Source: Muricea muricata
Lineage: Eukaryota; Cnidaria; Anthozoa; Malacalcyonacea; Plexauridae
Assembly (NCBI GenBank): GCA_963855995.1
Contig: OY979726.1
Span: 2,382,501 to 2,446,500 of the forward strand
DNA: 64,000 nucleotides
Direction: 5' to 3'
The translations under genes and the position numbers were made by a program. This document shows, piece after piece, positions 28,148-60,138 of this stretch. Numbering within the stretch: the stretch's first letter is position 1; every line of letters starts with the position of its first letter. The notes beneath the pieces were generated by a model. It saw only the letters and a list, made by a program, of their open reading frames with translations, ran no database searches and was not told the DNA's origin.

Positions 28148-28232
28148 ATGCCTTGGACTGCAGCTCAAAGAGAAAGATTGGCAGCGGAGAAAAGCGTACT
28201 GGAGCATTACTTCCCTGGCTGTGTGAAATGGA
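28148..28232 (+). pseudogene. E2-like family, N-terminal fragment cut by a transposon
   Basis: Starts MPWTAAQRERLAAEKSV and runs to C-V-K-W, identical in style to the intact E2-like genes, then breaks off where the inverted-repeat element at 28233 begins. The 5' flank (GACTGATTTGC, ATTGATGCC-type words) matches the flanks of the copies at 41253 and 43866. The rest of the gene is not found on the other side of the element. Confidence 0.85.
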
Positions 28233-28807
28233 GGCATACTGCATAACCCGGACTCGGACTCGGACTCGTGAAAAAATTCGTTACAAAAAGAATTCGTAGT
28301 TGCAGGGAAATATTTTTTAAGAATTACTATGGTGTTACAAACACAGTTTTCCTGCCAATTTGCAACCAATTTGTAAAAATCTATAAGGCTTATATGTTCC
28401 TGATTGTTTTAGGCTCAACATTGAGCTTGGATCTGACTATATAGCATGTAAATATTAAAGCCTTTCATACAAGATCTTCTTCTTAAGCTATTTGAAGGCA
28501 AGTTCTGCACTTACGCGCAATTTTCGCATCATATCATTTTGCCGGCATCATGCGCTATTTTCTTGGACCACAATACTTTGACAAGCGTACGCATTATACA
28601 CAACTACTGTTACTACGAAAAACGACAACATTTTTATTGATTCAACGTTTCGACCTTATTTTGTCATCATCTGGAATCTGATGATTACGCATTATAAGGT
28701 TCCAAATTTCGCCCAATTTTCGCACAGGAAATATATTAGCGATACAAAAACTTTAACCGACCATATGTTGAAACACAACACCTTGACAAGCTTTGGGTGG
28801 CGCTTTT

Positions 28808-29218
28808 ATGTATTGCAAGGCTCCAAAGTCCAAAGAATTTATTGCAATACGTGCGATCATCCACAGAAGATTATACAAGCTTTCAAGCGATGCGTTAGTT
28901 ACAAAATTTATAAAAGTATTTCGTGTTTGTATGGCTCACTGCCTCACTTGTAAAAAAGAACGCGCAAATGCGCTATTTTACCCATGTAAAGATTTAGTAA
29001 TTGTCGGCAGAGCAAGGAGAGAATATTGGAAAAACGGAGAAAAAGTCATCTCGAGCGAGCTGTCTAACGTATATTTTCATGTCAATCCGAACTGCGTTGC
29101 TGTTAAAAATGCATTTTTCGTGCCCGGATTGGTACAAATTCCTCCTGATTTACAACCTTTTTTAAAAGAATCGCACAAGAGGGAACTGAAGAGGAAACTT
29201 AACCTTAACTTTTCGTAG
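28808..29218 (+). CDS. Element-encoded protein of unknown family
   Basis: 136 residues from the first ATG. Has a Cys/His-rich part (FRVCMAHCLTCKKERA, later HVNPNC) then a hydrophobic-proline FVPGLVQIPPDLQPF segment and a basic end (KRELKRKLNLNF). The C-x-x-C and C-x-x-x-x-C spacings suggest metal binding. It is the only sizeable frame between the inverted ends, so a transposon role is likely, but I do not recognise a transposase and the catalytic type cannot be named. Confidence 0.4.
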   Translation: MYCKAPKSKEFIAIRAIIHRRLYKLSSDALVTKFIKVFRVCMAHCLTCKKERANALFYPCKDLVIVGRARREYWKNGEKVISSELSNVYFHVNPNCVAVKNAFFVPGLVQIPPDLQPFLKESHKRELKRKLNLNFS

Positions 29219-29509
29219 TTCATATATTGTAAATAATACTTTCTTTGCACTGGCACGTTCGTTTATCCTGATAAACATTTTGTTAATTTTTAATGGAAGA
29301 TCTTGTATGAAAGGCTTTAATATTTACCTGCTATATAGTCAGATCCAAGCTCAATGTTGAGCCTAAAACAATCAGGAACATATAAGCCTTATAGATTTTT
29401 ACAAATTGTTTGCAAATTGGCTGGAAAACTGTGTTTGTAACACCATAGTAATTCTTAAAAAGTATTTCCCTGCAACTACGAATTCTTTTTGTAACGAATT
29501 TTTTCACGG

Positions 29510-29596
29510 TTCCGAGTCCGAGTCCGGGTCCGAGTCCGGGTCCGAGTCCGAGTCTGGGTCCGGGTCCGAGTCTGGGTCCGAGTCCGAGTCCGGGTT
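29510..29596 (+). repeat. Hexamer array (CCGAGT)n
   Basis: About 14 units of CCGAGT/CCGGGT/CTGGGT inside the right end of the transposon. The left end has only about three units in complement, so the array has expanded on one side. Confidence 0.9.
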
Positions 29597-30408
29597 ATGC
29601 AGTATGCCAAGAACAACAAGGAGGGCTGGCCTTCCTAGCAGGGCTGGCTAAAAAAGCCGTCAAATCAATGTCAAAATGAATTTTTTAAATCTTTTTTGCC
29701 TTAAATATATAATTCTAAACGATTATTCACATTTCTTATTTTATATTCCAATATTCACATGGCTAACATGACTTATACTTCAAAATTTGGTGTAGAACTA
29801 TGAATTTGCATGACAAAAAATAATGAGTTGCAAAGAAGCCATCAAATACAACTTGTGAAAGAAAGCCAGTCCTAGATCTAGGGCTGTAAACATGCGATAA
29901 AAGTCAGTTCTACTGCTGGGGCTGGATCTCTCTGTAGGGCTCACATAAATGCAGCCCCCCCCCCCTCCCCATTAGATGTCTCATTTCTGTCGCGTGGAGT
30001 CAATTTGTCGTTTCCGGGAACCCCTTGACCTAGAATGCTGAATTGTTTTAGTTTTAAAAACGAAAGAGACTTCTGTTCCCTGAAGTTTTTTTATACAATG
30101 TATGAGCTCGTTCTTCCTGGAAGAAAAGCTCGGACTTCGATGTAATGCTTTGGACACCTGTCCAAAGAAATCGCTTGGGATATAAGAAACAAACTTTGGA
30201 AAGCGTTTTTTCCCGGTAGAGTGACGTGGATTGATCCGACAGGCGACACGAAAGTCGAATTGCCATTCAACACCAACAATGGCCTCAAATACTGTCTGAG
30301 AAGTTATCTGAAATCAGAAGACGATGACAGTTCAGATTTCCCAAATTCTGTCCCGGATATGGTAAGAATTTATCATGATGAACGTTGCTACATAAATTCT
30401 GACAAGTA

Positions 30409-31400: not shown

Positions 31401-31524
31401 TAATTTCCAACAATCCTGACAATGTCATGGCAACATTACATTGTTACACAGGTCGTGCGTTCATCTCCGAAGCCAATGCCTCGCTGGGATGTTGATGATG
31501 AGAAACAAGTGATTGCCAAAAGTA

Positions 31525-31735
31525 CCCTCCCACTTTGGCATGGGTTTTGGTGAGCTGACCACGATATCTGGCACTGCGCTAGGAAAATTTTGTATGTAGA
31601 GTTGAAAAGTGTATTTATTGTGGTTGTTTGTTTTCAACGTCATTTCTACTTTCGTATCGCCTGTAGGATCAATCCATTTCACACAGCCAGGAAAGTAATG
31701 CTCCAGTGTGATTTTCTCTGTTCCTACTCTTTCTC
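31525..31735 (-). pseudogene. E2-like family, internal fragment
   Basis: Encodes ITLEHYFPGCVKWIDPTGD onward through VEMTLKTNN, FPSAVPDI and SSPKPMPKW, without the MPWTQAQ start and without the Cys-motif half. Upstream, GGAAAACGAAAAGC still resembles the promoter of intact copies but runs directly into the body, so the start region was deleted. Copy B of the duplication keeps the complementary piece at 56727-56745. Confidence 0.8.
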
Positions 31736-32656
31736 CCTTATTTATGCTTTTCGTTTTCCAACAACTGGAACTGCGAAGGCCCAATTTTCGGATGAAGCAT
31801 ATACTTCTTATGTAGTCACGCATATATATAGTTATACTGTTGAAATTCACATTGTGAGTATAAAGAATTATCAAGCCCAAACGGAGTTTTTGTTATCAAC
31901 CTCAGCCAAATTTGTCGAAGGCGGCCCGTTGTTTTGGGCTATTCTCTTAGAGACGATGTTGGCAAACACGCTATTCGTTCGCACGCAATAAATTAAATAA
32001 GGAATTACTACAAGGACGCACTCTGCTTTCAGAGTCAACAATCACTTGGAACTTGAATATATGGAAGGCAGATTTAGAACATTCGTTAACCCTGTATTCC
32101 AGTAGCCGAAAACTTAAGCATGAGATAGACAACCGCTGAGATTACCAAGGACTAATGCAGCCTCACTTCATCACCGGAAGTAAGCACTCGGGTACAGGAT
32201 TCCAGAATGAAGCCCTTGCTGGCTCAATAAAAGATATATGTCGAACTGAATATATGGTGTACAGTGGCACCAAGTATTTAGCTAAACTTATATTTGTTCT
32301 CTACCAAAATAACAACAATTATTATATGGTTATGGGTGTTTTACCGTAAACTAAAACACTCATTCACTGCGCTCGTTCGTAAAATATTGTTTTCACTACT
32401 CGAAACTAATATTCATATCTTCGCGCCACCGTGTAATATCCTCTATATATTTCTTTTCCTTAGTGGAAAACTATGCTAAACTTCAATTAAAAGTCAAGTC
32501 CCGGATGTAGTGGCGTACGGAGGCTACGATTATTCTATGATAGGAGTATGTTATTGGGAAATTACGTTATTTCAAAATGTTATCAGTTTAAGAAGTTATC
32601 AGTTTTAAATATTATCAGTTTGATCTTATATGGACCATAATATACCTGACAGTTCG

Positions 32657-33202
32657 TTAAAAAAGAAGACAGCCTTGATTTTCGTCTGACTGAGAGCGTT
32701 GAAATTGAATCATATCTTCCAATTGTCGGCTTTCATTCACACGCGACGTACCGCTTTCGTTTATTTCCGAACCATTTCCACCCATCTCTCGTAGAAAGTG
32801 ATTCATAGGCTGTCCAGTTCTGACGTGACCTTCATAAGCCTCAAGCCAGACTCGTCCTTTCATCACGACTTCATACAGCGAGGAGCGATCGGTCCACTGA
32901 CTTTCGTGATAGTGACAAATTCTCAAATACCCATCACGTTTTATCAAGGTGTGATTATCATAACTACCGTCCCAGTTGGGCATCGGTTTTGGCGAACTGA
33001 CCACAACGAGGTCTGGCATTGCATTGGGAAAATTATCGATGTAGAGTCTCAATGTGTATTCATTGTCGTTGTTTGTTTTCAGCGTCACTTCGACCTTTGT
33101 ATCTCCTGTAGGATCAATCCATTTCACGCAGCCAGGGAAGTAATGCTCCAGTATGCTTTTCTCCGCTGCTAATCTCTCTGGTTGAGCTCGAGTCCAATGG
33201 TC
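32657..33202 (-). CDS. E2-like family member with CLLF C-terminus, start codon lost
   Basis: The body is intact from P-E-R-L-A-A-E-K-S-I-L-E-H to the stop, with PDLVVVSSPKPMPNW, RICHYHESQW and the tail ending NQGCLLF. It is nearly identical to the gene at 57931-58476. The usual ATGCCTTGG start is replaced by a sequence reading GACCATTGG, and no in-frame ATG lies upstream before a stop. A possible acceptor (TTTTAG) just upstream leaves room for a spliced start. Either a young pseudogene or a gene with a new 5' exon. Confidence 0.75.
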   Translation of the reverse strand, partial: DHWTRAQPERLAAEKSILEHYFPGCVKWIDPTGDTKVEVTLKTNNDNEYTLRLYIDNFPNAMPDLVVVSSPKPMPNWDGSYDNHTLIKRDGYLRICHYHESQWTDRSSLYEVVMKGRVWLEAYEGHVRTGQPMNHFLREMGGNGSEINESGTSRVNESRQLEDMIQFQRSQSDENQGCLLF

Positions 33203-34447
33203 AGGGGTACTAAAATTTATGAATTTGTTGTTTCAATTACATATGCAACGATAACTCAACATAAGTTGCCAATAAGTTCTTTCGTAGAATTCTTCAGATA
33301 TTTCATTTTAATAATACTATAGATATTTCATATTAATAATATGCCAATGTCGTGCTTGTGACATCACAGTGCATAATGTAACATCACAGACCTTGAAAGA
33401 ATAGATTCAAATCGTATTGGTTTGCTGAGAAAGTTAGACATCGTAAATGCTGTAAGAGAAGGCTGTATGGCAATAAAAACTTCACTGTGCATGTGTTGTA
33501 TGCAAGTATGATACTTGCATATTACTCAAGATGAAATATCTCAAGAAAGTAAATTAGTGAAATTCTGAAAAAGAGGATAGCAACTTAATTTACACGATTT
33601 TTACACAAACCCGTAATACGTTAGGGTGGGATTCCGTTGCATTCACACTTTTTAGAGATCATTGCACAGGCCACACACAAACCAGGTGTGGTCTAGGGCA
33701 CATGCTACATGATAGAGAATGTTTGGAAAGGTAAAAATATAATAACGTAAAAATAATGAACTCGTCGAAATTAGTTTTCTTAAAATTTCTACTGTGGCCT
33801 CCTATAATTATAAACCCTTTGAAAACCAAAAATCCATATATAAGCCAAACAATATTTCGATTATTTAATGTTTAGAATGGTGAATTTCGATTATGTAACA
33901 TTTAGAATGTCTTTGTTCAAAAATTGACTCGAGCATTCCAAAATAAACGTTCAAACTTCGTAACAATGTTTAGAATCTTACTGAGATCACCATTTGTTTT
34001 CTAGTACCTGGATTGTTTGGTGTGCTGTCTTTCTTTCAACTTCAGTCCTGTTCTGAGGGATCAGTAAATAAGTGCTTTAGTATGTTTACATACTGAATAT
34101 ACATATCGGTATAATTTTGTGGAAACACCACGTAAATTTGTCATCGCAAAGCGAAAGCTCCAGGCTTTGAATATTTAACATTTCGATTTGAAAGCTTTGC
34201 GATAAATTTAATTTATTATGCATGGTATTTCCACAAAATTATGATGGCAAACAAGTACTTTGCATATGTTATATACTAATTGTCAAAAAGGAGAAAAAGC
34301 AACAATACAAACAAGACACATGATACTGCATTGTAAAATGAGAAAACAGGGAAATTGAGTTCTGAAACTTGGTACATAACAACAGTCGTTGATTAAAAAG
34401 CGCAGGAGTATTTCGATGTGGAATTTTACAGTGAAAGTTAGCTGAAA
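33203..34447. other. Spacer without recognised gene
   Basis: AT-rich sequence with no coding signal. It contains a relative (34112-34241) of the palindromic MITE at 10668-10752. Confidence 0.5.
34112..34241. mobile_element. Palindromic MITE, GGAAACACCRCGTAAATTT type (copy 2)
   Basis: TATAATTTTGTGGAAACACC at the left and GGTATTTCCACAAAATTAT at the right. Same ends as 10668-10752 with a longer, diverged middle. Confidence 0.7.
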
Positions 34448-35979
34448 TCAGCATTCATTCTTTCTGTAGTACCTCAATTTTATTGCTTTCTTTCTTTCTT
34501 CGATTTCTTTCATGTTTTCAATTTCCAATTCCAGGTCTGTGGTTTTGATTCCAACTTTCAAAAATTCTTCTTCTAAACGTTGTTTTATTCTGCCTGATTC
34601 ATAATCTTTCATAATCTCCAGAAATTGGGAGTCGTTACAATAGAGTGAAAAATGTAGTGAACCTGCTGTGACATCCTGAACTTTGCCGATGACCTTTTCA
34701 AGAACACCAAGAACAGCAGATTTGAGCTCTGGGTAGCAGTAGATGGCACCAATGGAAACAACACCAATACCAACCGCATATTTTACTACTTCCGTGCTCG
34801 CTTTCAAATGGAATTCTATTTTATGCGGCTCAATTGCACAACCAACCTCAAGATCATGGCCTGCCATTATATTGTTGAAAATTGACCCTATAAAGCGACA
34901 CGCGATTAAAATAAGAGTCTGTATATTTCTATAAACACTATGCGTATTTTTACATTTTGTCCAAATACCTGGGTTTCAGTCACGTGATACGTTTAGAACT
35001 TGGTTGTCAATTCTAAATGGAAATATCGGATCGAGTTAAATAATAAATATTCATCATATGCATTTTTACCTTGTCATTGGTAGCACTATGCAGCTAATTC
35101 AAAAAAGGTTGTGCTATCAAACCTTAAACTCTAAGCACACAAAGGATGATGGTGGACAAATTTTAAGGTTTTAGATTTGCATATTGGAGCTATTTGTGAG
35201 TGGAATGTTTTCTTGGGGGATAGTTACCATGTCTCTAAAAAAATGGGCTCCATACATGCTTTCTAAGCTGCTTAAATTGTGTTCCCATCATGCTTTGGGT
35301 GCTTAGAGTTTAAGGTTTGAAAGGACAACCTATATTGAATTAGCTATATACAATTTAACGAAATTTGCTCGCTTTGACAAGGCACAAAGCGGCAATATGT
35401 GTAAAGTTAACCACCAAGATTATCCTATGTAAAATTATTGAGTGAAACCCTCTTATATTCATTAATTAACTACTTTAACTTTATGTAGCATTATTCGAGC
35501 GCTTATTAAGGACATTGAGTTTTAAGTAAAGATGAAATTGCGACACGTGCAAAAGTACAACAATCTTTGTGTAAATAATAAAAGGTGTCTTGATATAAAA
35601 TATGAGTAGTTATGCACAGTCTGAGACAGCTGTAGCATAAAATATTAATGGCATCGTCGTTACGGCACTGTGGATAAAACGTAAGGATTTGCTTACCGTA
35701 AGTTCTGAAATGTTTTATCAGCGGTATGAAATTACAATATCAAAGATTACTCCCCACCACTGCGAAGCGTTGCTGCTTCAACGAAATCAATTGCTTTTCC
35801 ACGTCTTTGTTATTACTGCCGCAGCAAGCGAGCAAGGCAGCAATCCTAGTCGTTATGTTGTCATGTGAGCTGAAATCTCCATGGATTCGCCAACCACAAT
35901 GCACTGCTTTCGGGCTTGCTGGCTCGACCATGACTGTCGTCCCTTTTTCCAATTCCCATGTATATGTATTTCCACACAT
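34448..35979 (-). CDS. Uncharacterised protein with hydrophobic helix and charged coiled tail
   Basis: The downstream frame (34448-34867, ATG at 34867) encodes 139 residues: an amphipathic N-part (EPHKIEFHLKASTEVVKY), a hydrophobic stretch (AVGIGVVSIGAIYCYP), then a long charged helix (IKQRLEEEFLKVG..LEIENMKEIEERKKAIK) ending KNEC. A separate frame at 35751-35979 begins MCGNTYTWELEKGTTV and can splice on: donor GA^GTAATC at 35750 and acceptor TTTATAG at 34888 join in phase, giving about 222 residues. The donor is weak, so whether this is one gene or two is open. I recognise no family. It is not related by eye to either repeated family, although it sits inside their array. Confidence 0.5.
35091..35348. 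mobile_element. Palindromic MITE
   Basis: TAGCTAATTCAA...AGGTTGTSCT and CAAACCTTAAACTCTAAGCAC at the left pair with the same words at the right. It lies in the putative intron of the 34.4-36.0 kb gene. Confidence 0.75.
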
Positions 35980-36767: not shown

Positions 36768-37217
36768 CTAACAAAGACTACAGGAATTACGTTCCTCCAT
36801 CTCTCTTAGAAAGTAATTCATAGGTTGTCCAGTTCTAATGTGACCTTCGTAAGCTTCCAGCCAGATTCGTCCTTTCATGACGACTTCGTACAGTGAGGAA
36901 CGGTCTGTCCACTGACTGTTGTGGTAGTGACAAATTCTCAAATATCCATCGCGTCTCGATAAGGTGTGATTGGCATAACTACCACCCCAGTTAGGCATCG
37001 GTTTTGGTGAACTGACCACGACCATATCTGGTATTGAGTTAGGGAAATTTCCAATGTAGACTCGCAAAGTGTATTCATTGTCGTTGTTTGTCTTCAGCGT
37101 CACTTCGACCTTTGTATTGCCTGTAGGATCAATCCATTTCACACAGCCAGGAAAGTAATGCTCCAGTATGCTTTTCTCTGCTGCTAATCTGGCTCTTTGA
37201 GCTGCAGTCCAAGGCAT
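36768..37217 (-). CDS. E2-like (UBC-fold) family protein, intact, CSLC end
   Basis: 149 residues, single exon; the reference member for the family. Layout: an N-terminal helix (TAAQRARLAAEKSILEHYF); strands C-V-K-W-I-D-P-T-G-N-T-K-V-E-V-T and Y-T-L-R-V-Y-I; F-P-N-S-I-P-D-M-V-V-V-S-S-P, resembling the UBC YP..P.v...SP turn; then N-H-T-L at 83-86, and D-G-Y-L-R-I-C-H-Y-H-N-S-Q-W with Cys96 and Trp103. It closes with SLYEVVMKGRIWLEAYEGH and R-T-G-Q-P. This order (His, G-x-x-x-I-C, Q-W-T/S, S-L-x-x-V) parallels the E2 active-site region, but the HPN tripeptide is HTL. The W-L-x-x-Y-E-x-x-x-x-T-G ending resembles bacterial-type E2s. The CSLC end is a CaaX-like prenylation signal, suggesting membrane tethering. 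The E2 fold is inferred by pattern only. Confidence 0.8.
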   Translation of the reverse strand: MPWTAAQRARLAAEKSILEHYFPGCVKWIDPTGNTKVEVTLKTNNDNEYTLRVYIGNFPNSIPDMVVVSSPKPMPNWGGSYANHTLSRRDGYLRICHYHNSQWTDRSSLYEVVMKGRIWLEAYEGHIRTGQPMNYFLREMEERNSCSLC

Positions 37218-39431: not shown

Positions 39432-39704
39432 TCAATTCAATGAGGTCACATAATCGCCAGATGAACACGAACGTCGAACGATAAAGAAACCAGCAGCGGC
39501 CATAGGAATCGCGAGAGCAGAGTCAACATTTGTGTGCTTCACGAGAAGTTTTCCGGTCTGTGGGTCGAACGCCAATTCCTGCTTGCTAGACTCGGTTTCC
39601 CACTTTCCCGTGCGTGGATTAAATGCTTTAGAGAGAGTACCATCATTCCGAGTCAAATGAAGTGCTTGGTGCACAACCTTTTCACTATCAGTCGAACGAT
39701 TCAT
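39432..39704 (-). CDS. GKWE-family small protein (member a)
   Basis: 90 residues, single exon, ATG at 39704. Family core: V-V-H-Q-A-L near the start, F-N-P-R-T-G-K-W-E at about 29-37, L-A-F-D-P-Q-T-G-K-L-L-V, then A-L-A-I-P-M-A-A-A-G-F-F, after which the sequence diverges (IVRRSCSSGDYVTSLN). No signal peptide or membrane segment. It reads as an alternating beta-rich small domain. Function unknown. Five near-complete members (39.4, 44.8, 47.1, 54.6 and 59.9 kb) are interleaved with E2-like genes. About 65 bp upstream of the ATG, AAAACCGAAAG (39769-39780, complement) is one base off a GAAANNGAAA site. Confidence 0.75.
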   Translation of the reverse strand: MNRSTDSEKVVHQALHLTRNDGTLSKAFNPRTGKWETESSKQELAFDPQTGKLLVKHTNVDSALAIPMAAAGFFIVRRSCSSGDYVTSLN

Positions 39705-41252
39705 TTTACGTGTGTCTATTTGAATCGTGTATGTAAAATACTGAATACTGAGTGTTGGTTTACTTATACTTTCGGTTTTGAAGAATTTCCTGTTCGTGTT
39801 TCCACGACTTAAATTTCTCGGTGATCATTAATATTCCATCACTTTGGGCATGGTAAATTGGTAACCGTCCCTCCCCTCTCAGTTCTTTTTTACACAGATC
39901 GTTAGTTTAAAAACACTGTTCTGAAATGAATGCATACATCGAAACAACTAAACCGCCGAATGTTTAAGTTTATACCTTCGTTGTTTCTCAATTCATCACG
40001 ATTACATAGTTATTTCAATATTTGACCTAAATGGCCAATACGACTTCCTATCGATTTCATTTGTTTAAATTAATGCTACTGCTTAATATTGTGCTGTTTC
40101 TGGAAAACGCTTTAACTATAGTATGTTGAATGGCAGGATTTGAAGCAAGACAATTGTTCCTATCCCTGACTTCCGTTCCCGGAGTTCTATCCTCGGAAGT
40201 CCATCCACGAGTTCCATTCCTTGGTTGGTTGACATCACTGGTTAACGAAGTCCGTGAGTTCAACATAGTTTTACCCGCTTTTGTGTACAATATTTAAGAA
40301 ATGTTTAATAGGACACAAGATTCGAGCTTTTGAAAAAACAAGACAATTTCTTGTCTTGTTTTAAATCTTGAATCTTGAGTTTACCAGATGTTTTTCTTCG
40401 GAGTATGTTTTTTCTTATATTTTATAAAATTGTCTGCTGGTAGTAGTTTTTTTAATAGGACACCAAGCTGACAATCCTCATGTAATAACATTTTACATTT
40501 TCTCTACAGTTTAAACTCGAAAGATTTTTTCACAGTCGTTGTCAACATGCCAATTAGCTGTTTCATTTCTTTCTGCCAAAACAGAGAGCTAGCTTGACTA
40601 TCTGCTGATCTGCCTGGGAGCAAAAGGCCTAGAGCGAGCAGGTTCGGAGTATCGACCTGTAATTTGTGATCTTCATCAGTTTTAATAATGTACAAGAGAA
40701 TTCGCGGGGCCCGGGGCAAAATTATATCTGGGCCGATAAGACGTCATTATTTTTAAACGACAGGACTAAAAACAGGTGGACAGTTTTCCAAAGAGTTAAG
40801 AATACCTCTAAACGTGGCCCTTAATGCCGTACACTCCCCCGATTCTCAAATTGGGGGCCTCGGGGAAGTTCCCCCCTACCCCCTCCCTCTCGGCGGCCCT
40901 GTTTCATACCACCTGTCTGTGAGACGTGGAACAATGATACTATGCAATGTGTAGCAATTTGTATGTACAGTGGCTGTTACAACATTTCAAAGTTCCAGTT
41001 CCCTCGAACCACAAACCTTCTCTAATCTTAACCCTAATTACCCTCTCGGCGAGGGAACCATGTATGGTATGTGTCACACCACCTATGAAGTAGAACAATG
41101 ATACTTCCGACTGACTTGCACATCCGGAATAACGCAAATTTTACCATCACATACTAATTGTGATACATAATTATATCTTTAAATACTTTGACACAAACTG
41201 CCTGCTTTTATGGGCAGTTTTAGCGATTGTAAACTAACCAAAAAATTAAATC
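39705..41252. other. Spacer with dispersed repeats
   Basis: No gene seen. 40944-41140 (GCAATGTGTAGCAATTTGTA...CCCTCTCGGCG) is repeated at 49590-49700, and 41090-41250 resembles the 5' flank of the E2-like copies at 28148 and 43866. A short perfect hairpin of AAGACAAGAAATTGTC type lies near 40340. Confidence 0.55.
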
Positions 41253-41320
41253 ATGCCTTGGACTCCAGCTCAAAAAGAAAAATTAGCAACAGAGAAGAAT
41301 CTACTAAATCACTTATACTT
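41253..41320 (+). pseudogene. E2-like family, 5' stub
   Basis: MPWTPAQKEKLATEKNLLNH followed by loss of similarity. It directly precedes the promoter-like segment of the next copy (41490), so it marks a tandem duplication junction. Confidence 0.75.
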
Positions 41321-41447: not shown

Positions 41448-41489
41448 AAAATCGAAAGAAGAGCAATTTGTCCAGTAAAATAACAAATC

Positions 41490-41918
41490 ATGCCTTGGAC
41501 TCAAGCTCAGAGAGAAAGATTAGCAACAGAGAAAAAAGTACTGGATCATTACTTCCCTGACTGTGTGAAATGGATTGATCCTGCAGGAGATGCGAAGGTC
41601 GAAGTGACGTTGATGACAAACAACGACAATAAATACACTTTGCGAGTCTACATTGGAAATCAGTTTCCAAACGCAATACCAGATATGGTCGTAATCAGTT
41701 CACCAAATCCGATGCCCAACTGAGGTGACAGTGTTGTCAGTTATACACTGTCCAGTCGCGACGGGTATTTGAGAATTTGCCACTGCCATCCAAGTGAATG
41801 GACAGATAGCTCCTCGTTGTATCAAGTCCTGATGAAAGGAAGAATCTGGCTGGAAGCTTATGAAGGTCATGTCAGAACTGGACAACCTTTGAACTACTTC
41901 TTGAGAGAGATGAAATAA
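41490..41918 (+). pseudogene. E2-like family member with a single nonsense codon
   Basis: Starts MPWTQAQRERLATEKKVLD and runs to SSPNPMPN, where the conserved Trp codon is TGA (41721-41723). The same frame then continues uninterrupted through D-G-Y-L-R-I-C-H-C-H-P-S-E-W-T-D, WLEAYEGHVRTGQP and L-R-E-M-K to TAA at 41916. No CaaX box. Apart from the TGA the frame is intact, so the lesion looks recent. Confidence 0.8.
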
Positions 41919-43004
41919 AATTCTGGTTTACTTTAAAGCACTTTCGATATAAACTCCTAGCAGACTTTAAAGCTTTCTCACTTCCGATTAAGACAATATT
42001 TATGGTCCAAGACAGAGCTTGTATTCCGAGCCAAAAATAGGGACAGTATGATCTTATGGTTCATATATAAAAGTTTTCGAACCACGAAATTAGGGGTTTA
42101 TATATATTATTTTGACGTAACGTTTACTGATACACATATAACATTGCCATAGAGGCAGATATATAATACTGTAGTAAAAACCAATAGAGAATGTCACTGT
42201 TACAAACCGTTATTTAAATAGAGATTACTGCATGGTTGGCGAGTGCGTACGATTTTTATGCACGGGTTGAGAAAGAAAAATGTCGAAACAAAATATTAAA
42301 GTCTCAAAACAGATTCGTACCATTTATTTCTTCGTTATTTGGCCTAAATAGTGAGTCAAGGCTGTTCTTCTTTCCGTTTCATGTTTTTTATTCGAAAAAC
42401 TCTCCTTCTTTTTGACATAGAAGCCAGATAATCCTTTCGCGCCTTCCCGAACACGACGGCCATGCTGTGAGCAAAATTACAATACGATTTTCCCCCCCTG
42501 TGAGCAAAATCGTACGGCCAATGAAAACGCTTATTCGCTTCTCCGCAGTGAAAATACGATTGTTACTTCACCCGTTTACCTCGCGTAAATCTCTATTTGT
42601 ATGGGAATGCATGAACACTTATATATCGAGGAATATTTTTTAGTTTGTGTACTGGGTGCATATGCTAGATATTAATTATTTTTCCGCAAATCGCTTTACC
42701 TTGAATGTTGTATGAGGGCAAAGCTGGTAATTGCCTATATTGTGCTGGGAAAAGGGAGATTCTATGCAATGGGCCTGGGATTCATTGGCCAAAAAATAAA
42801 AATGGGAATGGGATTAAGATTTAAGCAAGTCAACAAGTGGGACTGTAGGATTTGTGCATTTGGACAATGGGATTTAGTCAAAATTTGGGCTGGGAAATAG
42901 AAGTAGATTCTCCCCTCTACAGGACCCTGTTGTATTATAGAATTTGAGACAAGATGCTTGTTTCGTCCCCGGTGTTGCGTCCCTTGGTTTGATGACATAC
43001 TCTG
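41919..43004. other. Spacer
   Basis: No gene signal. A 62-codon plus-strand frame at 42712-42900 is composed of repetitive GGGA/TGGG words and looks like chance. Confidence 0.5.
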
Positions 43005-43184: not shown

Positions 43185-43865
43185 ATACTCTGGGAGTTCA
43201 ATATATAGTTTTGTCCGCCTGGTAGGAAACCTATTTTAAGGTGCTTTTTTCATTAATGCTTTTGACGTTTTGTACACAAACATATTCATTAGGAAGCGAT
43301 GTTAGGTCATCAAACTGACTGTCCGCAAATGTTTAATAACATTTTTCAATTTTGCTACAGTTTTGTAAACTTGAAAGCTTTCCTCTCGGCTGTCCTCGTG
43401 CATAGTTATATATATCCATTTCTTGCCAAAATTACACAGAGCTTGCTTCTTGCTGCGCGCGAGCAAAAAAAAACTAGCAAGAGAATAACACTTATTCCGA
43501 ATTGAACTTTTCCGCTGTTTTCAAACTCTCTCCTCCGCAGAGGTTTTGGGAATTTCTTTGATGATTCCGTAAACAACGAAAGGTCAAAGATCGCGACTTC
43601 CCGAGTCTGGAGTAGGCCTCTGATTGGTCAATTGACAATGGTTTGGAAAGGAATTTGTTCCTCGATTCAGAACTCGAAACTTCGGACTGACTTGCTCTTT
43701 ATTGGAATTTTACTTTCAGTTTGTCTTCATATTGAATTCGCAGAGGATATATCCGGTACACACCTATATGTTTCGTGATACTTTTTCATGATACTTTAAT
43801 AAAAACTGCCTGCTTTTTTGGCGTCTTTTTGCGATTGTAAACAAACCAAAATCAGAATCAAATCA

Positions 43866-44840: not shown

Positions 44841-45113
44841 TCAATACCCTCGCGATGAAGCACGGGCGACACGTAAAGGTTGAAAAAAACCACTGATTGC
44901 CATTTCAATAGCCAAAGCCTTGTCCACATTACTCGCGGCGTCCTGAGCTGTAACAGCCATGAGTTTGTTGGTTTCTGGATGAAATACCAGTTTTGTTCGG
45001 AGTTTCTTATTGCCATCGACGGACTCCCACTTTCCGGTCGCTGGATTGAAATTCCCTGGGAAGGCAGCTCTTTCGCTCAGCGCGTCCTGAACAGCCTTCG
45101 GATCGGAGCTCAT
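44841..45113 (-). CDS. GKWE-family small protein (member b)
   Basis: 90 residues from ATG at 45113: MSSDPKAVQDALSERAAFPG, F-N-P-A-T-G-K-W-E, L-V-F-H-P-E-T-N-K-L-M-A-V-T, then A-L-A-I-E-M-A-I-S-G-F-F and a basic tail (RVARASSRGY). It converges with the nonsense-bearing E2-like copy at 43866-44299. Closest relative in the window is member c (47101). Confidence 0.75.
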   Translation of the reverse strand: MSSDPKAVQDALSERAAFPGNFNPATGKWESVDGNKKLRTKLVFHPETNKLMAVTAQDAASNVDKALAIEMAISGFFQPLRVARASSRGY

Positions 45114-47100: not shown

Positions 47101-47373
47101 ATGAGTTCTGATCCAACATCTGTGCAAGATGCCCTTCACGAAACTGCAGTATTTCCTGGCAATTTTAATCTAAAAAATGGAAAATGGGAAAGCACTGGTA
47201 CTGGTACAAACAGCACAGGGCCTAGAACAAAGCTGGTGTTTGATCCGAAAACGCATAAGCTGTTGGCGGTGTCAGCAGAGAAAGCTATGGATGGAGAATT
47301 GGCAATTGAGATGGCTGCAGCTGGCTGGTTTTGTTTGAAGATGTGTTTCATCATAAAACTTGACAGAGCCTAG
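47101..47373 (+). CDS. GKWE-family small protein (member c)
   Basis: 90 residues from ATG 47101: MSSDPTSVQDALHETAVFPG, F-N-L-K-N-G-K-W-E, T-K-L-V-F-D-P-K-T-H-K-L-L-A-V-S, E-L-A-I-E-M-A-A-A-G-W-F, then a hydrophobic tail (CLKMCFIIKL). Same strand as and about 670 bp upstream of the intact E2-like gene at 48040. Truncated relatives lie at 51191 and 52970. Confidence 0.8.
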   Translation: MSSDPTSVQDALHETAVFPGNFNLKNGKWESTGTGTNSTGPRTKLVFDPKTHKLLAVSAEKAMDGELAIEMAAAGWFCLKMCFIIKLDRA

Positions 47374-48039: not shown

Positions 48040-48543
48040 ATGTCTTGGACTGAAGCTCAGAAAAAAAGATTGGCGGCAGAGAAAGCCGTGCTGGATCATG
48101 TCCTCCCTGGATGCGTGAAATGGATTGATCCTACAGGAGATACGAAAGTCGAAGTGAAGTTGAAAACAAACAACGACAACGAATACACATTGAGAATTTA
48201 CATTGGAAATTTTCCTAATGCAGTACCAGACCTGGTCGTGGTCAGTTCACCAGAACCGATGCCTGACTGGGGTTACAGTTCTACCAGTCATACCCTTGGT
48301 ACGCGCGATGGGTATTTGAGAATCTGTCACTATCACGACAGTCAGTGGACCGATCGCTCGTCGTTGTATGAAGTCGTGATGAAAGGAAGAGTATGGCTGG
48401 AAGCTTACGAAGGTCATGTCAGAACTGGAAAGGCTATGAATTACTTTCTGAGAGAGATGGGGGAAGAAGGATCGTCACCTGTGAATGAAGATGTGATTCA
48501 GCGTACTCAGTCAGACGGGAATCAACGCTGTCTTCTTTGTTAG
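48040..48543 (+). CDS. E2-like (UBC-fold) family protein, intact, CLLC end
   Basis: 167 residues, one exon. Start MSWTEAQKKRLAAEKAVLDH, then VLPGCVKWIDPTGDTKVEV, FPNAVPDLVVVSSPEPMPDW, S-H-T-L-G-T-R-D-G-Y-L-R-I-C-H-Y-H-D-S-Q-W, SSLYEVVMKGRVWLEAYEGH. The C-terminal extension is acidic and polar, with VNEDVIQRTQSDGNQ before CLLC. This CaaX box with Cys at the last position would favour farnesylation by known enzyme preferences. The most divergent of the intact copies. Confidence 0.85.
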   Translation: MSWTEAQKKRLAAEKAVLDHVLPGCVKWIDPTGDTKVEVKLKTNNDNEYTLRIYIGNFPNAVPDLVVVSSPEPMPDWGYSSTSHTLGTRDGYLRICHYHDSQWTDRSSLYEVVMKGRVWLEAYEGHVRTGKAMNYFLREMGEEGSSPVNEDVIQRTQSDGNQRCLLC

Positions 48544-50665: not shown

Positions 50666-51436
50666 ACGATTCTACTTATAGTGTACATTAGGCCACATAA
50701 AAAATATTTAGTGATCGCCCTTTAGTTTTCCAAAAATCGGGCAGGCGGGGTTTTTTCCAACTTTTTATTCATGTTTGATTTTGCTACTTGGCGCATACGC
50801 GATATAGAACGATACAAACAGCTTATTTTATATGAATAGTTTTATTGGAAATGTAAACGTATCTACGCAAGACATGATACCGGCTGTAGCATAACCGTCA
50901 AACTTCTCTAGTATTAAACACATTTAACTCAAACATACAAGCAAACTACAAACATTGCCGAACCTCTCCAGTGCAAAACGCAAAATACTTAAGAGTACAG
51001 CTAGTGAACGGAGTAGCCCCGAAGTTGGTACAAGTTTACGGTCAATCTTGACTATCTTGTCCCCAGGCAGCATAGTCTCTTACTCAAATTAAAGCTGTCT
51101 TTAAAAAACGTCCCAACCCTAATCCTGACCCCATCCTTAATCCTAACCTTAATCTTAAACCTCACAAGAACTCGCAAGAACATATGTTTAAAAGTGTTCA
51201 AAATGCCCTCCACGAAACAGCAGTATTTCCTGGTCGTCGCTCTGAAATTGTTTTATGTTACTTCAATGGGTTAGGAAAAAGATAGCGGGGGTTTAACCTC
51301 CTTGAAATTTGCCTATGTGTCTTAGTGTGAATTCTTACACAGTGGAAACACTGAAACATTCGATGCTATTATAAGTAGTATGCGAAGATATACAGTGGTT
51401 TTGTCTAATTTTGACCATAATATACGTGACAGTTCG
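50666..51436. other. Spacer with GKWE-family remnant and telomere-like words
   Basis: 51115-51165 has degenerate CCCTAATCCTAAC words. 51191-51240 encodes S-V-Q-N-A-L-H-E-T-A-V-F-P-G, the start of a member-c-type gene, then loses similarity. The following 200 bp repeat at 53020-53220. Confidence 0.7.
51191..51240 (+). pseudogene. GKWE-family 5' fragment
   Basis: KSVQNALHETAVFPG matches residues 6-20 of member c; nothing downstream is kept. Duplicated at 52970-53029. Confidence 0.7.
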
Positions 51437-51956
51437 TTAGCAAAGAAGACAGCCTTGATTCTCGTTTGACTGAGTGCGCTGAAATTGAATCATATCTTCC
51501 ATCTGTCGGTTTTCATTCATCTCTGATCCTTTTCTACCCATCTCTCGTAGAAAGCAACTCATGGGCTGTCCAGTTCTGATCTGACCTTCGTAAGCTTCCA
51601 GCCAGACTCGTCCATCACGACTTCGTATAACGAGGAGCGATCCGTCCACTGACTGTTGTGCTAGTGACAAACTTTTAAGTACCCATCGCGCCTACCTAGG
51701 GCATGACTGGCAGAACTGTAGTCCCAGTTAGGCATCGGTTTTGGCGAACTGACCACGACCAGGTCTGGTGTACTGCATTAGGAAAGTTTTCGACGTAAAC
51801 TCTCAATGTGTATTCGTTGTCGTTGTTTGTCATCAGCGTCACTTCGACTTTTGTATCGCCTGTAGGATCAATCCATTTCACGCAGCCAGGAAAGTAATGC
51901 TCCAGTACGCTTTTCTCCGCTGCCAATCTTTTCCTCTGAGCTTGAGTCCAAGGCAT
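51437..51956 (-). pseudogene. E2-like family member, multiply disrupted, CLLC end
   Basis: Starts MPWTQAQRKRLAAEKSVLEH. Lesions: a 2-nt insertion after F-P-N-A-V (about 51772), a TAC-to-TAG change within the C-H-Y-H motif (about 51662), and a 4-nt deletion in the V-M-K-G-R segment (about 51613). The end reads RMEDMIQ-type linker then NQGCLLC. It belongs to the duplicated unit whose other copy (53218-53769) is intact. Confidence 0.85.
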
Positions 51957-52034
51957 AATTTATTATTTTGCTGCACAAATTACTTCTCGTCTTTCGATTT
52001 AGGCTGCATAGTTTATTATTTTCGTTTGTTTATG

Positions 52035-52560: not shown

Positions 52561-52969
52561 GAAAACACTTTTAAAGAGGGTGTTGTTAATAGCTTTTATT
52601 GTCACATATCGTGGTAGTAAACCTAGCTTTTATTACAGCAGTATTTTACTGTTTTTCATTTACACATATGTTTCATTTAATACTACGTTTTGTGACATAA
52701 GAATTTAATATACTAAGCTAAAGATACTAGCGAATTAATGAAACATCAGACTATTATAACATCAGACAGGCTAAAAGTTCGCTATATTTTAAGATTTTAA
52801 GATACATATGCTGCCTCCTTTATTGCTGAGCAATATGTGTTCATTTTGTGACGCCTTAGGTAGAACCGGTTAAAAGATATAATCTTAATTTGAAAAGCGT
52901 CCTAACCCTAATCCTAACTCCAACCCTAATCCTAACCTTAATCTTAGACCTCGCAAGAACACACGTTTA
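52561..52969. other. Spacer
   Basis: No gene. Ends in degenerate CCCTAATCCTAAC words (52900-52945), as in the other duplicate. Confidence 0.5.
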
Positions 52970-53029
52970 AAAGTGTTCAAAATGCCCTTCACGAAACAGC
53001 AGTATTTCCTGGTCGTCGCCCTGAAATAG
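52970..53029 (+). pseudogene. GKWE-family 5' fragment (duplicate)
   Basis: Same KSVQNALHETAVFPGRR stub as 51191-51240, ending at TAG. It converges with the intact E2-like gene. Confidence 0.7.
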
Positions 53030-53217: not shown

Positions 53218-53769
53218 TTAAAAAAGAAGACAACCTTGATTCTGCTCTGACTGAGTGCGTTGAAGTTGAATTATATTTATATCCTCCCACTGTCGACTTT
53301 CATTCAGACGCGACATACGGCTTTCATTTATTTCTGAACCGTTTCCACCCATCTCTCGTAGAAAGTAACTCATGGGCCGTCCAGTTCTGATGTGACCTTC
53401 GTAAGCTTCCAGCCAGACTCGTCCTTTCATGACGACTTCGTAGAGCGAGGAGCGATCGGTCCACTGACTGTAGTGGTAGTGACAAATTTCTAAGTGCCCA
53501 TCGCGTCTACCCAAGGTGTGATTCTCATTACTACCACCCCAGTTAGGCATCGGTTTTGGCGAACTGACCACGACCATATCTGGTATTGAGTTAGGGAAAT
53601 CTCCGATGTAGACTCTCAATGTGTATTCATTGTCGTTGTTTGTTTTCAGCGCCACTTCGACTTTTGTATCTCCTGTAGGATCAATCCATTTCACGCAGCC
53701 AGGAAAATAATGCTCCAGTACGCTTTTCTCCGCTGCTAATCTTTCCCTCTGAGCTTGAGTCCAAGGCAT
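53218..53769 (-). CDS. E2-like (UBC-fold) family protein, intact, CLLF end
   Basis: 183 residues, the longest intact member. MPWTQAQRERLAAEKSVLEH, YFPGCVKWIDPTGDTKVEV, FPNSIPDMVVVSSPKPMPNW, E-N-H-T-L-G-R-R-D-G-H-L-E-I-C-H-Y-H-Y-S-Q-W, WLEAYEGHIRTGRPMSYFL. The tail after L-R-E-M is polar (GGNGSEINESRMSRLNESRQ) and ends EQNQGCLLF. The CLLF box fits CaaX prenylation with Phe at X (accepted by both prenyltransferase types in known systems). The promoter carries a GAAAACGAAAG site at 53848. Confidence 0.85.
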   Translation of the reverse strand: MPWTQAQRERLAAEKSVLEHYFPGCVKWIDPTGDTKVEVALKTNNDNEYTLRVYIGDFPNSIPDMVVVSSPKPMPNWGGSNENHTLGRRDGHLEICHYHYSQWTDRSSLYEVVMKGRVWLEAYEGHIRTGRPMSYFLREMGGNGSEINESRMSRLNESRQWEDINIIQLQRTQSEQNQGCLLF

Positions 53770-54648: not shown

Positions 54649-55017
54649 TCATTTTGTGACGTCTTCGGTCGAACCTGAAAACATTGCCAAATTTTGTCTA
54701 CCAAATTTTGCGAATACACAATTCGTTGTGAGCGCCGCTTTTTTAAAACTGTCCGTAAATTTACGCGGTTTACCCATATTATCGCTGAAAAAACCAGCAG
54801 CTGCCATAGGAATCGCAACGACAGAATCCGGATTGTCATTATTTTGTTTCAGAATGAGTTTTCCACTGCTTTTGTCAAAAGCTAATTCCTGTCGGTTGCC
54901 GTTCGTAGCGGTTTCCCACTTTCCATTACGAGCATTAAATGCGTTAGGCAGAGTACCGTCTGTTTTAGTTTGGTGCATTGCTTCTTGGACAACTTTGGTA
55001 TCATTGGAACGACTCAT
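54649..55017 (-). CDS. GKWE-family small protein with extended C-terminus (member d)
   Basis: 122 residues from ATG 55017: MSRSNDTKVVQEAMHQTKTD, F-N-A-R-N-G-K-W-E, Q-E-L-A-F-D-K-S-S-G-K-L-I-L, V-V-A-I-P-M-A-A-A-G-F-F. It then has 37 further residues (RKFTDSFKKAALTTNCVF...) not shared with other members. Closest to member a (39432) by the T-x-x-D-G-T-L segment. A perfect GAAATCGAAAG site lies 69 bp upstream (55086-55096). Confidence 0.75.
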   Translation of the reverse strand: MSRSNDTKVVQEAMHQTKTDGTLPNAFNARNGKWETATNGNRQELAFDKSSGKLILKQNNDNPDSVVAIPMAAAGFFSDNMGKPRKFTDSFKKAALTTNCVFAKFGRQNLAMFSGSTEDVTK

Positions 55018-55096: not shown

Positions 55097-55989
55097 AGAC
55101 CTGTTTTAGAGGGGTGTTTATTAATATATTATGACTAATATGAGCCTTACATGAAGCACATCATAGCGAGTGGACAGTAGGGTCACTCATCAGTGCAACT
55201 CGGCGCCCTATCATTCTGCAGTTTACTGGTTGCCACCAGCCAGTTCAGCGTTCTTATTGGCCTGAAAATGAAATTGACTGGCTGGCTGGCATAATGCTAA
55301 TGACACGCGTAATGTGATATGCGTGAACACACAAACTTAAATTCGGTGACCCTACTGTACATCCCATACTGTGCATGAGGGCTACTCCTCGTATAGACGA
55401 GGTCTCGCTTGCTAATACATTTTCCTAGTAATGAGGGGTAGCCTAAGCTACCCATATATAAGAACAACAAGGAGGGCTGGCCTTCCTCGCAGGGCTGGCT
55501 AAAAAAGCCGTCAAATCAATGTCAAAATGAATTTTTTAAATCTTTTTTGCCTTAAATATATAATTCTAAACGATTATTCACATTTCTTATTTTATATTCC
55601 AATATTCACATGGCTAACATGACTTATACTTCAAAATTTGGTGTAGAACTATGTTTGCATGACAAAAAATAATGAGTTGCAAAGAAGCCATTAAATGCAA
55701 CTTGTGAGAGAAAGCCAGTCCTAGATCTAGGGCTGTAAACATGCGATAAAAGTCAGTTCTACTGCTGGGGCTGGATCTCTCTGTAGGACTCACATAAATG
55801 CAGCCCCCCCCCTCCCCATTAGATGTCTCATTTCTGTCGCGTGGAGTCAATTTGTCGTTTCCGGGAACCCCTTGACCTAGAATGCTGAATTGTTTTAGTT
55901 TTAAAAACGAAAGACTTCTGTTCCCTGAAGTTTGTTTATACAATGTATGAGCTCGTTCTTCCTGGAAGAAAAGCTCAGACTTCGATGCA

Positions 55990-56523
55990 ATGCTTTGGAC
56001 ACCTGTCCAAAGAAATCGCCTGGGATATGAGAAACAAACTTTGGACAGCTTTTTTCCCCCGGGAAAGTGACGTGGATTGATCCGACAGGCGACACAAAAG
56101 TCGAATTGCCATTGAACACGAACAATGGCCTCAAATACTGTCTGAGAATTTATCTGAAATCAGGAGACGATGAGTAGAATATTTCCGGATATGGTTAGAA
56201 TTTATTATTATTAACGTTGCTACGTAGATTCTGAGAAGTAATTTCCAACAATCGTGGCAATGTCAAGTCAACATTACATTGTAACACAGGTCGTGCGTTC
56301 GTCTCCACTGCCAATGCCTTGCTGGGGTGTTGATGGTGAGAAACATACGCTGGGTTACTGTGATGGGTTCTTAAAGATTTGTCATCATCGTGAAAGTCGT
56401 TGGACAGATCGCTCCACTCTTTATGAAGTTGTGATGAAGGGGAGGTTTTGGTTAGAAGCACACGAAGGATACCTAATGACAGGAAAATGCCTGAGCACAT
56501 TTCTGGGCAAGATGAGAGAATAA
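55990..56523 (+). pseudogene. E2-like family, two-exon subtype, copy B
   Basis: Exon 1 (MLWTPVQRNRLGYEKQTLDS, ATG 55990) is frameshifted by extra C residues before W-I-D-P-T-G-D-T-K-V-E. It also has an early stop (G-D-D-E-stop) replacing the S-S-D-F-P-N-S-V segment of copy A. Intron 56194-56289 begins GTTAGA and ends ACACAG, between P-D-M and V-V. Exon 2 (56290-56523) is fully open: VVRSSPLPMPCWGVDGEKHT, G-F-L-K-I-C-H-H-R-E-S-R-W, TLYEVVMKGRFWLEAHEGY, ending K-M-R-E. No CaaX box. Exon 1 damage makes a normal product unlikely. Confidence 0.75.
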
Positions 56524-56584
56524 CTGCATGCTGGTCAAGATAAACTTCTACAAATCTTTGAAATATATTAGATTTAAAATAGGT

Positions 56585-57930: not shown

Positions 57931-58476
57931 TTAAAAAAGAAGACAGCCTTGATTTTCGTCTGACTGAGAGCGTTGAAATTGAATCATATCTTCCAACTGT
58001 CGGCTTTCATTCACACGCGACGTACCGCTTTCATTTATTTCTGAAGCATTTCCACCCATCTCTCTCAGAAAGTGATTCATAGGCTGTCCAGTTCTGATGT
58101 GACCTTCATAAGCCTCAAGCCAGACGCGTCCTTTCATCATGACTTCGTAGAGCGAGGAGCGATCGGTCCACTGACTTTCGTGATAGTGACAAATTCTCAA
58201 ATACCCATCACGTTTTATCAAGGTGTGATTATCGTAACTACCGTCCCAGTTGGGCATCGGTTTTGGCGAACTGACCACAACCAGGTCTGGCATTGCATTG
58301 GGAAAATTATCGATGTAGAGTCGCAATGTGTATTTATTGTCGTTGTTTGTCATCAGCGCCACTTCGACCTTCGTATCGCCTGTAGGATCAATCCATTTCA
58401 CGCAGCCAGGGAAGTAATGCTCCAGTACGCTTTTCTCTGCTGCTAATCTGTCTCTCTGAGCTTGAGTCCAAGGCAT
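57931..58476 (-). CDS. E2-like (UBC-fold) family protein, intact, CLLF end
   Basis: 181 residues, one exon: MPWTQAQRDRLAAEKSVLEH, YFPGCVKWIDPTGDTKVEV, Y-T-L-R-L-Y-I-D-N-F-P-N-A-M-P-D-L, N-H-T-L-I-K-R-D-G-Y-L-R-I-C-H-Y-H-E-S-Q-W, WLEAYEGHIRTGQPMNHFL. Tail GGNASEINESGTSRVNESRQ, then a polar linker and NQGCLLF. Nearly identical to the start-less copy at 32657-33202, to which it is related by segmental duplication. Promoter site GAAAACGAAAG at 58529. Confidence 0.85.
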   Translation of the reverse strand: MPWTQAQRDRLAAEKSVLEHYFPGCVKWIDPTGDTKVEVALMTNNDNKYTLRLYIDNFPNAMPDLVVVSSPKPMPNWDGSYDNHTLIKRDGYLRICHYHESQWTDRSSLYEVMMKGRVWLEAYEGHIRTGQPMNHFLREMGGNASEINESGTSRVNESRQLEDMIQFQRSQSDENQGCLLF

Positions 58477-58528
58477 AATTTACTATTTTGCTGCTCAAAT
58501 CATTCTTCTCCCTTCCACTCTGTTTATG

Positions 58529-58539: not shown

Positions 58540-58684
58540 CAAGAACTCGAACTGAATGTTACCGGAAGCCCAATTCCCGGAAGACATGCAGTCATGCCGT
58601 ACGCTGTCACACATGCAGGTATACGTTTACAACATTGATTCTATTCGTCGTATCAAGAGCAAAACATATAATATGGGAGCGGTT

Positions 58685-58900
58685 GTATCAAAGGCGTTTA
58701 GCTTAAACGGTGGATAAGTGAAATTTAAAAATCACTTTTACACCTAGTACGGAACAGAAATCATGCGTTTAATAGGGTAAATATTTAGTTTTATATATAA
58801 TTGTTCTTCTCTGATCCAATAACTTCAGCTGGTTTGTTTATACAACATGCAAACTTGTTTTTACTTATCCACCGTTTAAGCTAAACGCCTTTGATACAAG
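58685..58900. mobile_element. MITE with TGTATCAAAGGCGTTTAGC ends
   Basis: The left arm TGTATCAAAGGCGTTTAGCT and right arm AGCTAAACGCCTTTGATACA are complementary and extend through TTAAACGGTGGATAAGT. It interrupts the flank shared with the 51-54 kb units. Confidence 0.85.
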
Positions 58901-59356
58901 TGGCCCCTGGCAAACAGAGCGGAGTGCAACAAGTGTATCACATTTAAACTTGAATTTGAAAGTTTCAATTTGCGAAACTGTTGTATGCATGTCAATGGGT
59001 ATCTTCCCACTGCCACGCCAAACAAATTTATCGGCAATCAATTAAAACGCTTCGCCTTCCAAAAACGCTTCTAGAGACTAGAATTGATGTTGTTAACAGT
59101 GCTCAGGGGTCCACGGGTCAGAAATTTGTACAGTCTCCCTGGTACGAGCGCCAAAAGCACGCACGAGTCGAGGGCTGTTAGCGAGAAGTGTGTGGTAAAG
59201 AACTTGTAAATAAAGTCTCTGAAATACCACATCAAAACAAACATTTTCGTTTCTTAAGTGCCCTTCAACATATGTCCCCCCCCCTGGCCCTTTCCAGATT
59301 CGGCGTCTCTGTGTATCTTTTTACACAGTGGAGCATCCTGTGCGTATGTTTGTGTG

Positions 59357-59690
59357 CATCTTCATAAGCTTCCAGCCACACTCGTCCTATTATCACGACT
59401 TCGTACAACGAGGAGCGATCGGTCCACTGACTTTCGTGGTAGTGACAAATTTCGAAGTACCCATCGCGGCTACCGAGGGTATGATTGGTAGAGCTGCAGC
59501 CCCAGTAAGTCATCGGCTTTGGCGAACTGACCACGACCATATCTGGTACTGAGTTAGGAAAATCTTCAATGTAAATTCTCAATGTGTATCCATTGTCGTT
59601 GTTTGTTTTCAGTGTAACTTCGACTTTCGTCCCCTGTAGGATCTACCCATTTCACAGAGCCAGGGAAGTAATCTCCATAACAAAATCAGT
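59357..59690 (-). pseudogene. E2-like family, truncated at both ends and frameshifted
   Basis: Begins at D-Y-F-P-G-S-V-K-W-V-D-P-T without the MPWTQAQ start and has a small deletion after the G-D codons. It then reads M-R-I-Y-I-E-D-F-P-N-S-V-P-D-M to R-D-G-Y-F-E-I-C-H-Y-H-E-S-Q-W and VWLEAYE, where similarity stops before R-T-G. The invariant Cys is kept. Confidence 0.8.
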
Positions 59691-59871
59691 TTTGAAATTT
59701 GTGTGTGACGGAAGTGCATGATGGGGCCAAGACGCGAAGTCGAAACCAAATGATCGCCATTTCTGTCCTTTAAATATTAAATAGCTTTAACGGTCGATTC
59801 GGACCAGGATTGCTCAGTATTCCTCTTGGCTGCACTTCATATTTTCTTGTCGTGTATACACGTATGTGCAA

Positions 59872-60138
59872 ATGGCTTCCAGTAATGCAAATGTCGTTCA
59901 AGGAATACCAATAGCCGATGCAGACGGTACGCGTAGGAGATTTTTAAACACAGCAACTGGGAGGATTGAAGAATTTCCCTCACAAAAGATGGTCTTTGAT
60001 ACTCATACTGGGAAGCTGATGGTTGTTTTGTCGGGAAATAAAACCATTGCACTAGATAACCGAGTCTTTACCGAAATGGATAGAGACGGATTTTTTGTCA
60101 AGACAACGCTTGAAAGTCAACAGGATGGACAGCAGTAA
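59872..60138 (+). CDS. GKWE-family small protein, divergent (member e)
   Basis: 88 residues from ATG 59872: MASSNANVVQGIPIADADGT, F-L-N-T-A-T-G-R-I-E-E (GKWE replaced by GRIE), K-M-V-F-D-T-H-T-G-K-L-M-V-V-L, then E-M-D-R-D-G-F-F and ESQQDGQQ. Head-to-head with the truncated E2-like copy at 59357-59690. The end CAGCAGTAAGTAA is also a splice-donor match (CA^GTAAGT), so an alternative spliced tail is possible. About 135 bp upstream, GAAGTCGAAAC is one base off an IRF site. Confidence 0.7.
   Translation: MASSNANVVQGIPIADADGTRRRFLNTATGRIEEFPSQKMVFDTHTGKLMVVLSGNKTIALDNRVFTEMDRDGFFVKTTLESQQDGQQ

Follow-up and report, generated by a model that had tools for sequence, protein, structure and literature searches.

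The 64,000-nucleotide window of Muricea muricata DNA analysed here (C11:2382501-2446500, in a genome of 453 Mb and 74 contigs) holds, between 28 and 60 kb, an array of two gene families: E2-like proteins with a predicted ubiquitin-conjugating (UBC) fold and a family of small proteins, GKWE. As a whole, the array is best explained (probability about 0.5) by membrane-held E2-like enzymes with GKWE as a dedicated partner, and by descent of the E2-like family from bacterial-type E2/JAB genes. The array would be a birth-and-death cluster of an E2-like family expanded in octocorals; the array clade, with its putative C-terminal prenylation signals, would probably be held at the membrane. GKWE would be a separate, older family dedicated to this E2 clade, most likely as a regulator or adaptor, less likely as a substrate. 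The wider E2 family would probably descend, in animals, from the bacterial E2/JAB toolkit for conjugation and deconjugation that type II CBASS (cyclic-oligonucleotide-based antiphage signalling system) exemplifies. The computed observations are the UBC fold (from a model), the conservation of a Cys and of CaaX-like C-termini, the linkage of the two families, the position of the linked E2-like proteins in one branch and the adjacency of JAB-like genes to E2 clusters.

Linkage of GKWE to one E2 branch

GKWE is a conserved family (51 database proteins) for which neither Pfam nor PDB gave a convincing match, and its fold and role are unproven. Its core hairpins carry TGK turns and are followed by D and MAxxGFF. 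Among contigs of at least 4 kb, 13 of the 23 carrying GKWE also carried an E2-like gene; E2-like genes were present on 28. The linkage thereby extends to several other assemblies. Location on the same contig was deduced from equal contig size, with the longest contig shown for each protein cluster. The 13 linked contigs are not all independent: the proteins of contig 408755 are identical to those of the window, and those of 644149 and 82073 are near-identical. In the E2 tree (81 rows; two of 83 inputs were too short to pass the length cut), the 22 GKWE-linked rows were all in one 46-row branch (support 98), which excluded all 14 copies used from outside C11 in the same genome.

Protein P0064 (205 aa) begins with a stretch that beats 20,000 shuffles on the GKWE profile and continues with an E2-like domain containing the Cys; judged by its sequence, it is likely a GKWE-E2 fusion. 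A genome search with the array copy g39 gave eight matches: seven belong to the C11 array, and the eighth, at C10:11490568-11490678, had E 0.0029. The open reading frame (ORF) at this C10 match does not have the first hairpin, matched the GKWE profile at E 4.7e-13 and lies within an E2/JAB supercluster on C10, with a JAB-like match 5 kb away and the nearest E2-like gene at 26 kb. Genome searches with copies g44 and g59 gave matches on C11 alone.

The GKWE tree (58 rows) had three supported groups (Shimodaira-Hasegawa-like approximate likelihood ratio test 95, 96 and 88); another set, holding g39 and g54, was not resolved as a single branch. Each of the four sets contained rows from several contigs, and each of ten contigs encoded at least two GKWE proteins.

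Turnover inside the array

Hidden Markov model (HMM) profiles and tblastn located 14 E2-like places in the window, close to the 13 or so copies of the original prediction; this count treats the small match at 31452-31517 as exon 2 of the 30.1-kb copy. Four copies are uninterrupted with an ATG (36768-37217, 48040-48543, 53218-53769 and 57931-58476), one is uninterrupted without an ATG (32.66-33.25 kb), and the remaining places are broken, truncated, intron-split or fragmentary. The same methods gave five full GKWE ORFs and two remnants of 15 codons each, as predicted, and tblastn reproduced the predicted relative orientations at 44.5, 47-48, 51.3, 53.1 and 59.7 kb. Beyond the window edge (stretch L018; joined coordinates) there are one E2-like place (65.9-66.7 kb) and two full GKWE copies (65.5 and 67.6 kb). 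The array features are:

28088-28333 (+): E2-like fragment, N-terminal part (tblastn + HMM)
30145-30388 (+): E2-like, intron-type, exon 1, with exon-2 piece 31452-31517; block duplicated with 55.5-56.2 kb (tblastn + HMM)
31464-31823 (-): E2-like fragment (tblastn + HMM)
32660-33250 (-): E2-like, open frame without ATG, C-terminus CLLF, CaaX-like (tblastn + HMM)
36768-37217 (-): E2-like, intact, C-terminus CSLC (HMM)
39432-39704 (-): GKWE copy g39 (tblastn + HMM)
41202-41318 (+): E2-like fragment (tblastn + HMM)
41478-41933 (+): E2-like, full length, disrupted by two stops (tblastn + HMM)
43850-44386 (+): E2-like, full length, one in-frame stop (tblastn + HMM)
44841-45113 (-): GKWE copy g44 (tblastn + HMM)
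47101-47373 (+): GKWE copy g47 (tblastn + HMM)
48040-48543 (+): E2-like, intact, C-terminus CLLC (HMM)
51190-51234 (+): GKWE remnant, 15 codons (tblastn + HMM)
51440-51959 (-): E2-like, disrupted (tblastn + HMM)
52969-53013 (+): GKWE remnant, within a tandem duplicate of the block holding the 51.2-kb remnant (tblastn + HMM)
53218-53769 (-): E2-like, intact, C-terminus CLLF; AlphaFold2 model made
54649-55017 (-): GKWE copy g54, long C-terminal tail (tblastn + HMM)
55987-56562 (+): E2-like, intron-type, disrupted (tblastn + HMM)
57931-58476 (-): E2-like, intact, C-terminus CLLF (HMM)
59256-59670 (-): E2-like, 5'-truncated (tblastn + HMM)
59872-60138 (+): GKWE copy g59, head-to-head with the preceding E2-like piece (tblastn + HMM)

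Joint amplification of the two families, as originally proposed, was rejected by synonymous divergence (dS) and by the trees. The E2-like copies are young (dS 0.16-0.69, ratio of nonsynonymous to synonymous divergence 0.19-0.25; 10 pairs among five copies), whereas GKWE dS was saturated and not estimable in 15 of 21 pairs (seven copies), and the GKWE subfamilies are older. The estimable GKWE values were 1.45-2.37 (five pairs) and 0.35 (g59 versus the 67.6-kb copy). In the array, E2-like genes turn over fast around a putative partner that changes slowly. Duplicated blocks (pieces of at least 150 columns) pair 29.6-33.2 kb with 55.5-58.5 kb and 51.1-52.9 kb with 52.9-54.7 kb, and parts of 56.0-63.5 kb recur within 66.1-73.5 kb; they explain both GKWE remnants and the g59 pair, but none of the other GKWE copies. 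Copies g39 and g54 match over the coding part only (237 columns, 68%).

The claim that every E2-like copy has a GKWE nearby did not hold: 5 of 15 E2-like places (the 14 of the window and one just outside), all at 28-37 kb, had no GKWE within 2 kb, the nearest being 2.2-11 kb away. Tight pairing inside the array was rejected as well, the median GKWE-E2 gap being 461 bases against 654 (mean of medians) for random in-array placement (p 0.27; the small tblastn places at 31452-31517 and at 66413-66472 did not enter the calculation). When the full 84 kb was analysed, the complete set of GKWE copies lay nearer to an E2-like place than under random placement (p 0.0001). Splicing of GKWE to E2 within the array was also considered and rejected by eye, given variable tails, stops after the domain and no consistent donor. 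The reasons first given for a functional link, pairing in the array and joint amplification, were mostly wrong; the link itself is partly supported, at about an even bet or better, by other evidence from contig linkage, the single E2 branch, P0064 and the C10 ORF.

In-array distances of the size that chance predicts also fit a possible but unlikely alternative, synteny without function, in which an old locus holds both families, E2-like genes come and go beside GKWE genes that persist as a stable cluster, and linkage in relatives reflects inherited gene order. The GKWE rows of other contigs group beside single window copies, not in window-only expansions, and one GKWE pair and both remnants were carried on duplicated blocks, as this alternative would have it. 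It accounts less well for the likely fusion P0064, for the GKWE-like ORF found away from the array in the C10 supercluster and for the seven full array GKWE copies, all of which have an open frame despite saturated dS in most pairs.

Fold, residues and C-termini of the E2-like proteins

An AlphaFold2 model and structural comparison predicted a UBC fold for the copy at 53218-53769. The best structural row was Serratia CdnG-E2 (8yjy, type II-short CBASS), tied with the ubiquitin E2 variant (UEV) domain of TSG101. A Cys was present in the expected E2 region in 56 of the 61 members having a residue there (its match to the E2 Cys was judged by eye), and the next His along was kept in 61 of 61. The C-terminus was CaaX-like in 27 of 64 members, and because of such termini in the array clade the enzymes are probably held at the membrane; catalysis and prenylation are both what we infer. 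As the alignment has no HPN tripeptide, the proteins are named E2-like and not canonical E2. The best Pfam UQ_con match was at E 0.054, Pfam RWD matched 8 of 25 members, and the PADLOC CBASS E2 profile gave weak matches in 8 of 25 (best 3.9e-4). Relatives with an organism name were from Dendronephthya gigantea and Paramuricea clavata, both Octocorallia. A 318-aa frame on C14 (L034:5143-6096) encodes two tandem E2-like domains.

The proteins resemble eukaryotic E2 and UEV proteins (Ube2w, Ube2s, TSG101 UEV) in the predicted fold and in the Cys in the expected region, but differ in the missing HPN, in UQ_con E-values of at least 0.054 and in their octocoral named relatives. To our knowledge plant UEVs do not have the Cys, and we know of no GKWE partner for plant UEV1A/B. 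Plant UEV1A/B are reported to carry a C-terminal CaaX (PMC9917286), and in this they are alike, being UBC-fold proteins ending in CaaX. Such CaaX-bearing proteins, the tie with TSG101 UEV, the RWD matches and the missing HPN would suit non-catalytic UEV/RWD-like adaptors with GKWE as their ligand or scaffold subunit, but the Cys and His counts speak against this, and we consider this arrangement only a tentative alternative.

Several results weigh against membrane-held enzymes with a dedicated GKWE partner. Within the listings, no member of the other family appeared on 10 of the 23 GKWE contigs and 15 of the 28 E2 contigs, and in the 46-row branch that holds the GKWE-linked proteins, 24 rows had no known GKWE link. 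The GKWE profile found nothing in 17 fetched 10-kb stretches at E2 clusters off C11 (best E 0.081, L024); of the three fetched beside the window on C11, L018 alone contained GKWE (two copies). The C10 ORF, which came from the genome search, lies outside these 20 stretches, and its pairwise match to the start of P0064 was not significant (545 of 5,000 shuffles as good). Foldseek with the E2-like model gave no match at E <= 0.001, five of the 61 members did not have the Cys, HTL stands in the consensus where HPN might be, and the E2-like member of the window itself had no PADLOC match. To these are added the chance-like gaps in the array and, for GKWE, the lack of a convincing Pfam or PDB match and a poor model (predicted local distance difference test, pLDDT, 54.7) that gives no confident fold. 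GKWE-E2 binding and activity are predictions only; an immune role and bacterial descent we likewise infer.

JAB-like genes near other E2 clusters

JAB-like ORFs were found about 1.0 and 2.2 kb from E2-like copies on C10 and C6, and another 11 kb away on C10. The family members read were:

L021:6060-6902, JAB-like
L022:2352-5563, JAB-like
L036:4443-5246, JAB-like

PADLOC JAB profiles matched two ORFs at 1.4e-12 and 3.6e-12 and a split ORF at 9e-4 and 2e-3. Pfam gave no match on three JAB-like ORFs (L021 and both L022 pieces). The JAB/JAMM metal-site motif is E...HxH...S..D. Its residues were complete in one of the three copies read (E, HSH, S and D in the L022 pieces); L036 does not have the E, and L021 has neither the E nor the second H. 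The family had 49 genome matches, on C6 and C10 and also on C3 and C8, with none on C11. Three of nine E2 clusters, two of them at one same JAB cluster, had a JAB cluster no more than 15 kb away; the other six, including the C11 array, had none. Random placement was never as good in 200,000 genome-wide trials, and the fraction as good was 4.5e-5 on C6 and C10 alone, with a 15-kb limit and a 60-kb joining distance of our choosing, the former set after some distances had been seen. Bacterial descent is probable because some other E2 clusters adjoin this expanded family. One scan for bacterial loci of the JAB-like family gave 80 pattern matches, none of them confirmed. A single 1768-aa frame on C6 contains three JAB-like matches, and ORFs of the TRIM kind, with RING and B-box, occur in the C10 E2/JAB region (L024:211-2053 and L036:8416-9390).

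In CBASS, the cyclase is joined to PspA by Cap2, a linkage that Cap3 undoes (PMC11153139). The octocoral parallel with Cap2/Cap3 is by resemblance only: the UBC fold, the tied Serratia structure and the weak profile matches recall type II-short CBASS, and JAB-like genes near other E2 clusters match the CBASS JAB profile. By contrast, the genes here are nuclear genes of an animal and some contain an intron, a CaaX-like box terminates many members, C11 has no JAB match, and sequence similarity is remote; the comparison covers the E2 and JAB parts only.

The adjoining JAB-like genes could also suit GKWE as a modifier or substrate conjugated by the E2-like enzyme. The attachment might use the invariant Gly in the GFF end of GKWE, which is followed by tails of differing length, or the near-invariant Lys of the TGKL hairpin (K52). 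We judge this quite improbable, since the two Phe residues behind that Gly hardly vary either, no ubiquitin-like fold was predicted (the model being poor) and the array contig has no JAB match. For GKWE as a regulator, plant MUB offers an analogy, being a small protein reported to regulate certain E2s (PMC4996978). In that system the partner is prenylated and has a ubiquitin fold, whereas here the CaaX-like box is on the E2-like protein and no confident fold is available for GKWE.

The octocoral E2/JAB expansion and its bacterial-type affinities seem to matter more than the array. cGAS-STING is an example of animals reusing components of bacterial defence, and an animal E2/JAB module resembling that of CBASS would, if true, add another, featuring a new partner and CaaX-tagged E2-like enzymes. 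It is doubtful, though conceivable, that octocorals carry an expanded chromosomal conjugation-deconjugation system derived from bacterial antiviral E2/JAB modules, with anchored E2-like enzymes, JAB-like proteases, new GKWE partners and immune-like turnover. No account of an octocoral E2/JAB/GKWE system turned up in the portions of the literature retrieved. Even if the system is not immune, GKWE is conserved and matches nothing convincing in Pfam or PDB.

Elsewhere in the window, Rfam gave a tRNA at 27448-27516 (+) (39.8 bits) where ARAGORN gives none, and a 448-aa open frame at 20958-22304 (+) had no Pfam match at E <= 1. For a 139-aa ORF at 34448-34867 (-) Pfam gives only PAH at E 0.067; we take it to resemble a TRADD-N-type domain with a membrane helix. 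TRADD-N expansions are described for cnidarians (PMC8195603). The exons at 7047-9243 (+) belong to a gene resembling vitamin K-dependent gamma-carboxylase (HTTM 1e-42, lumenal domain 1e-21).
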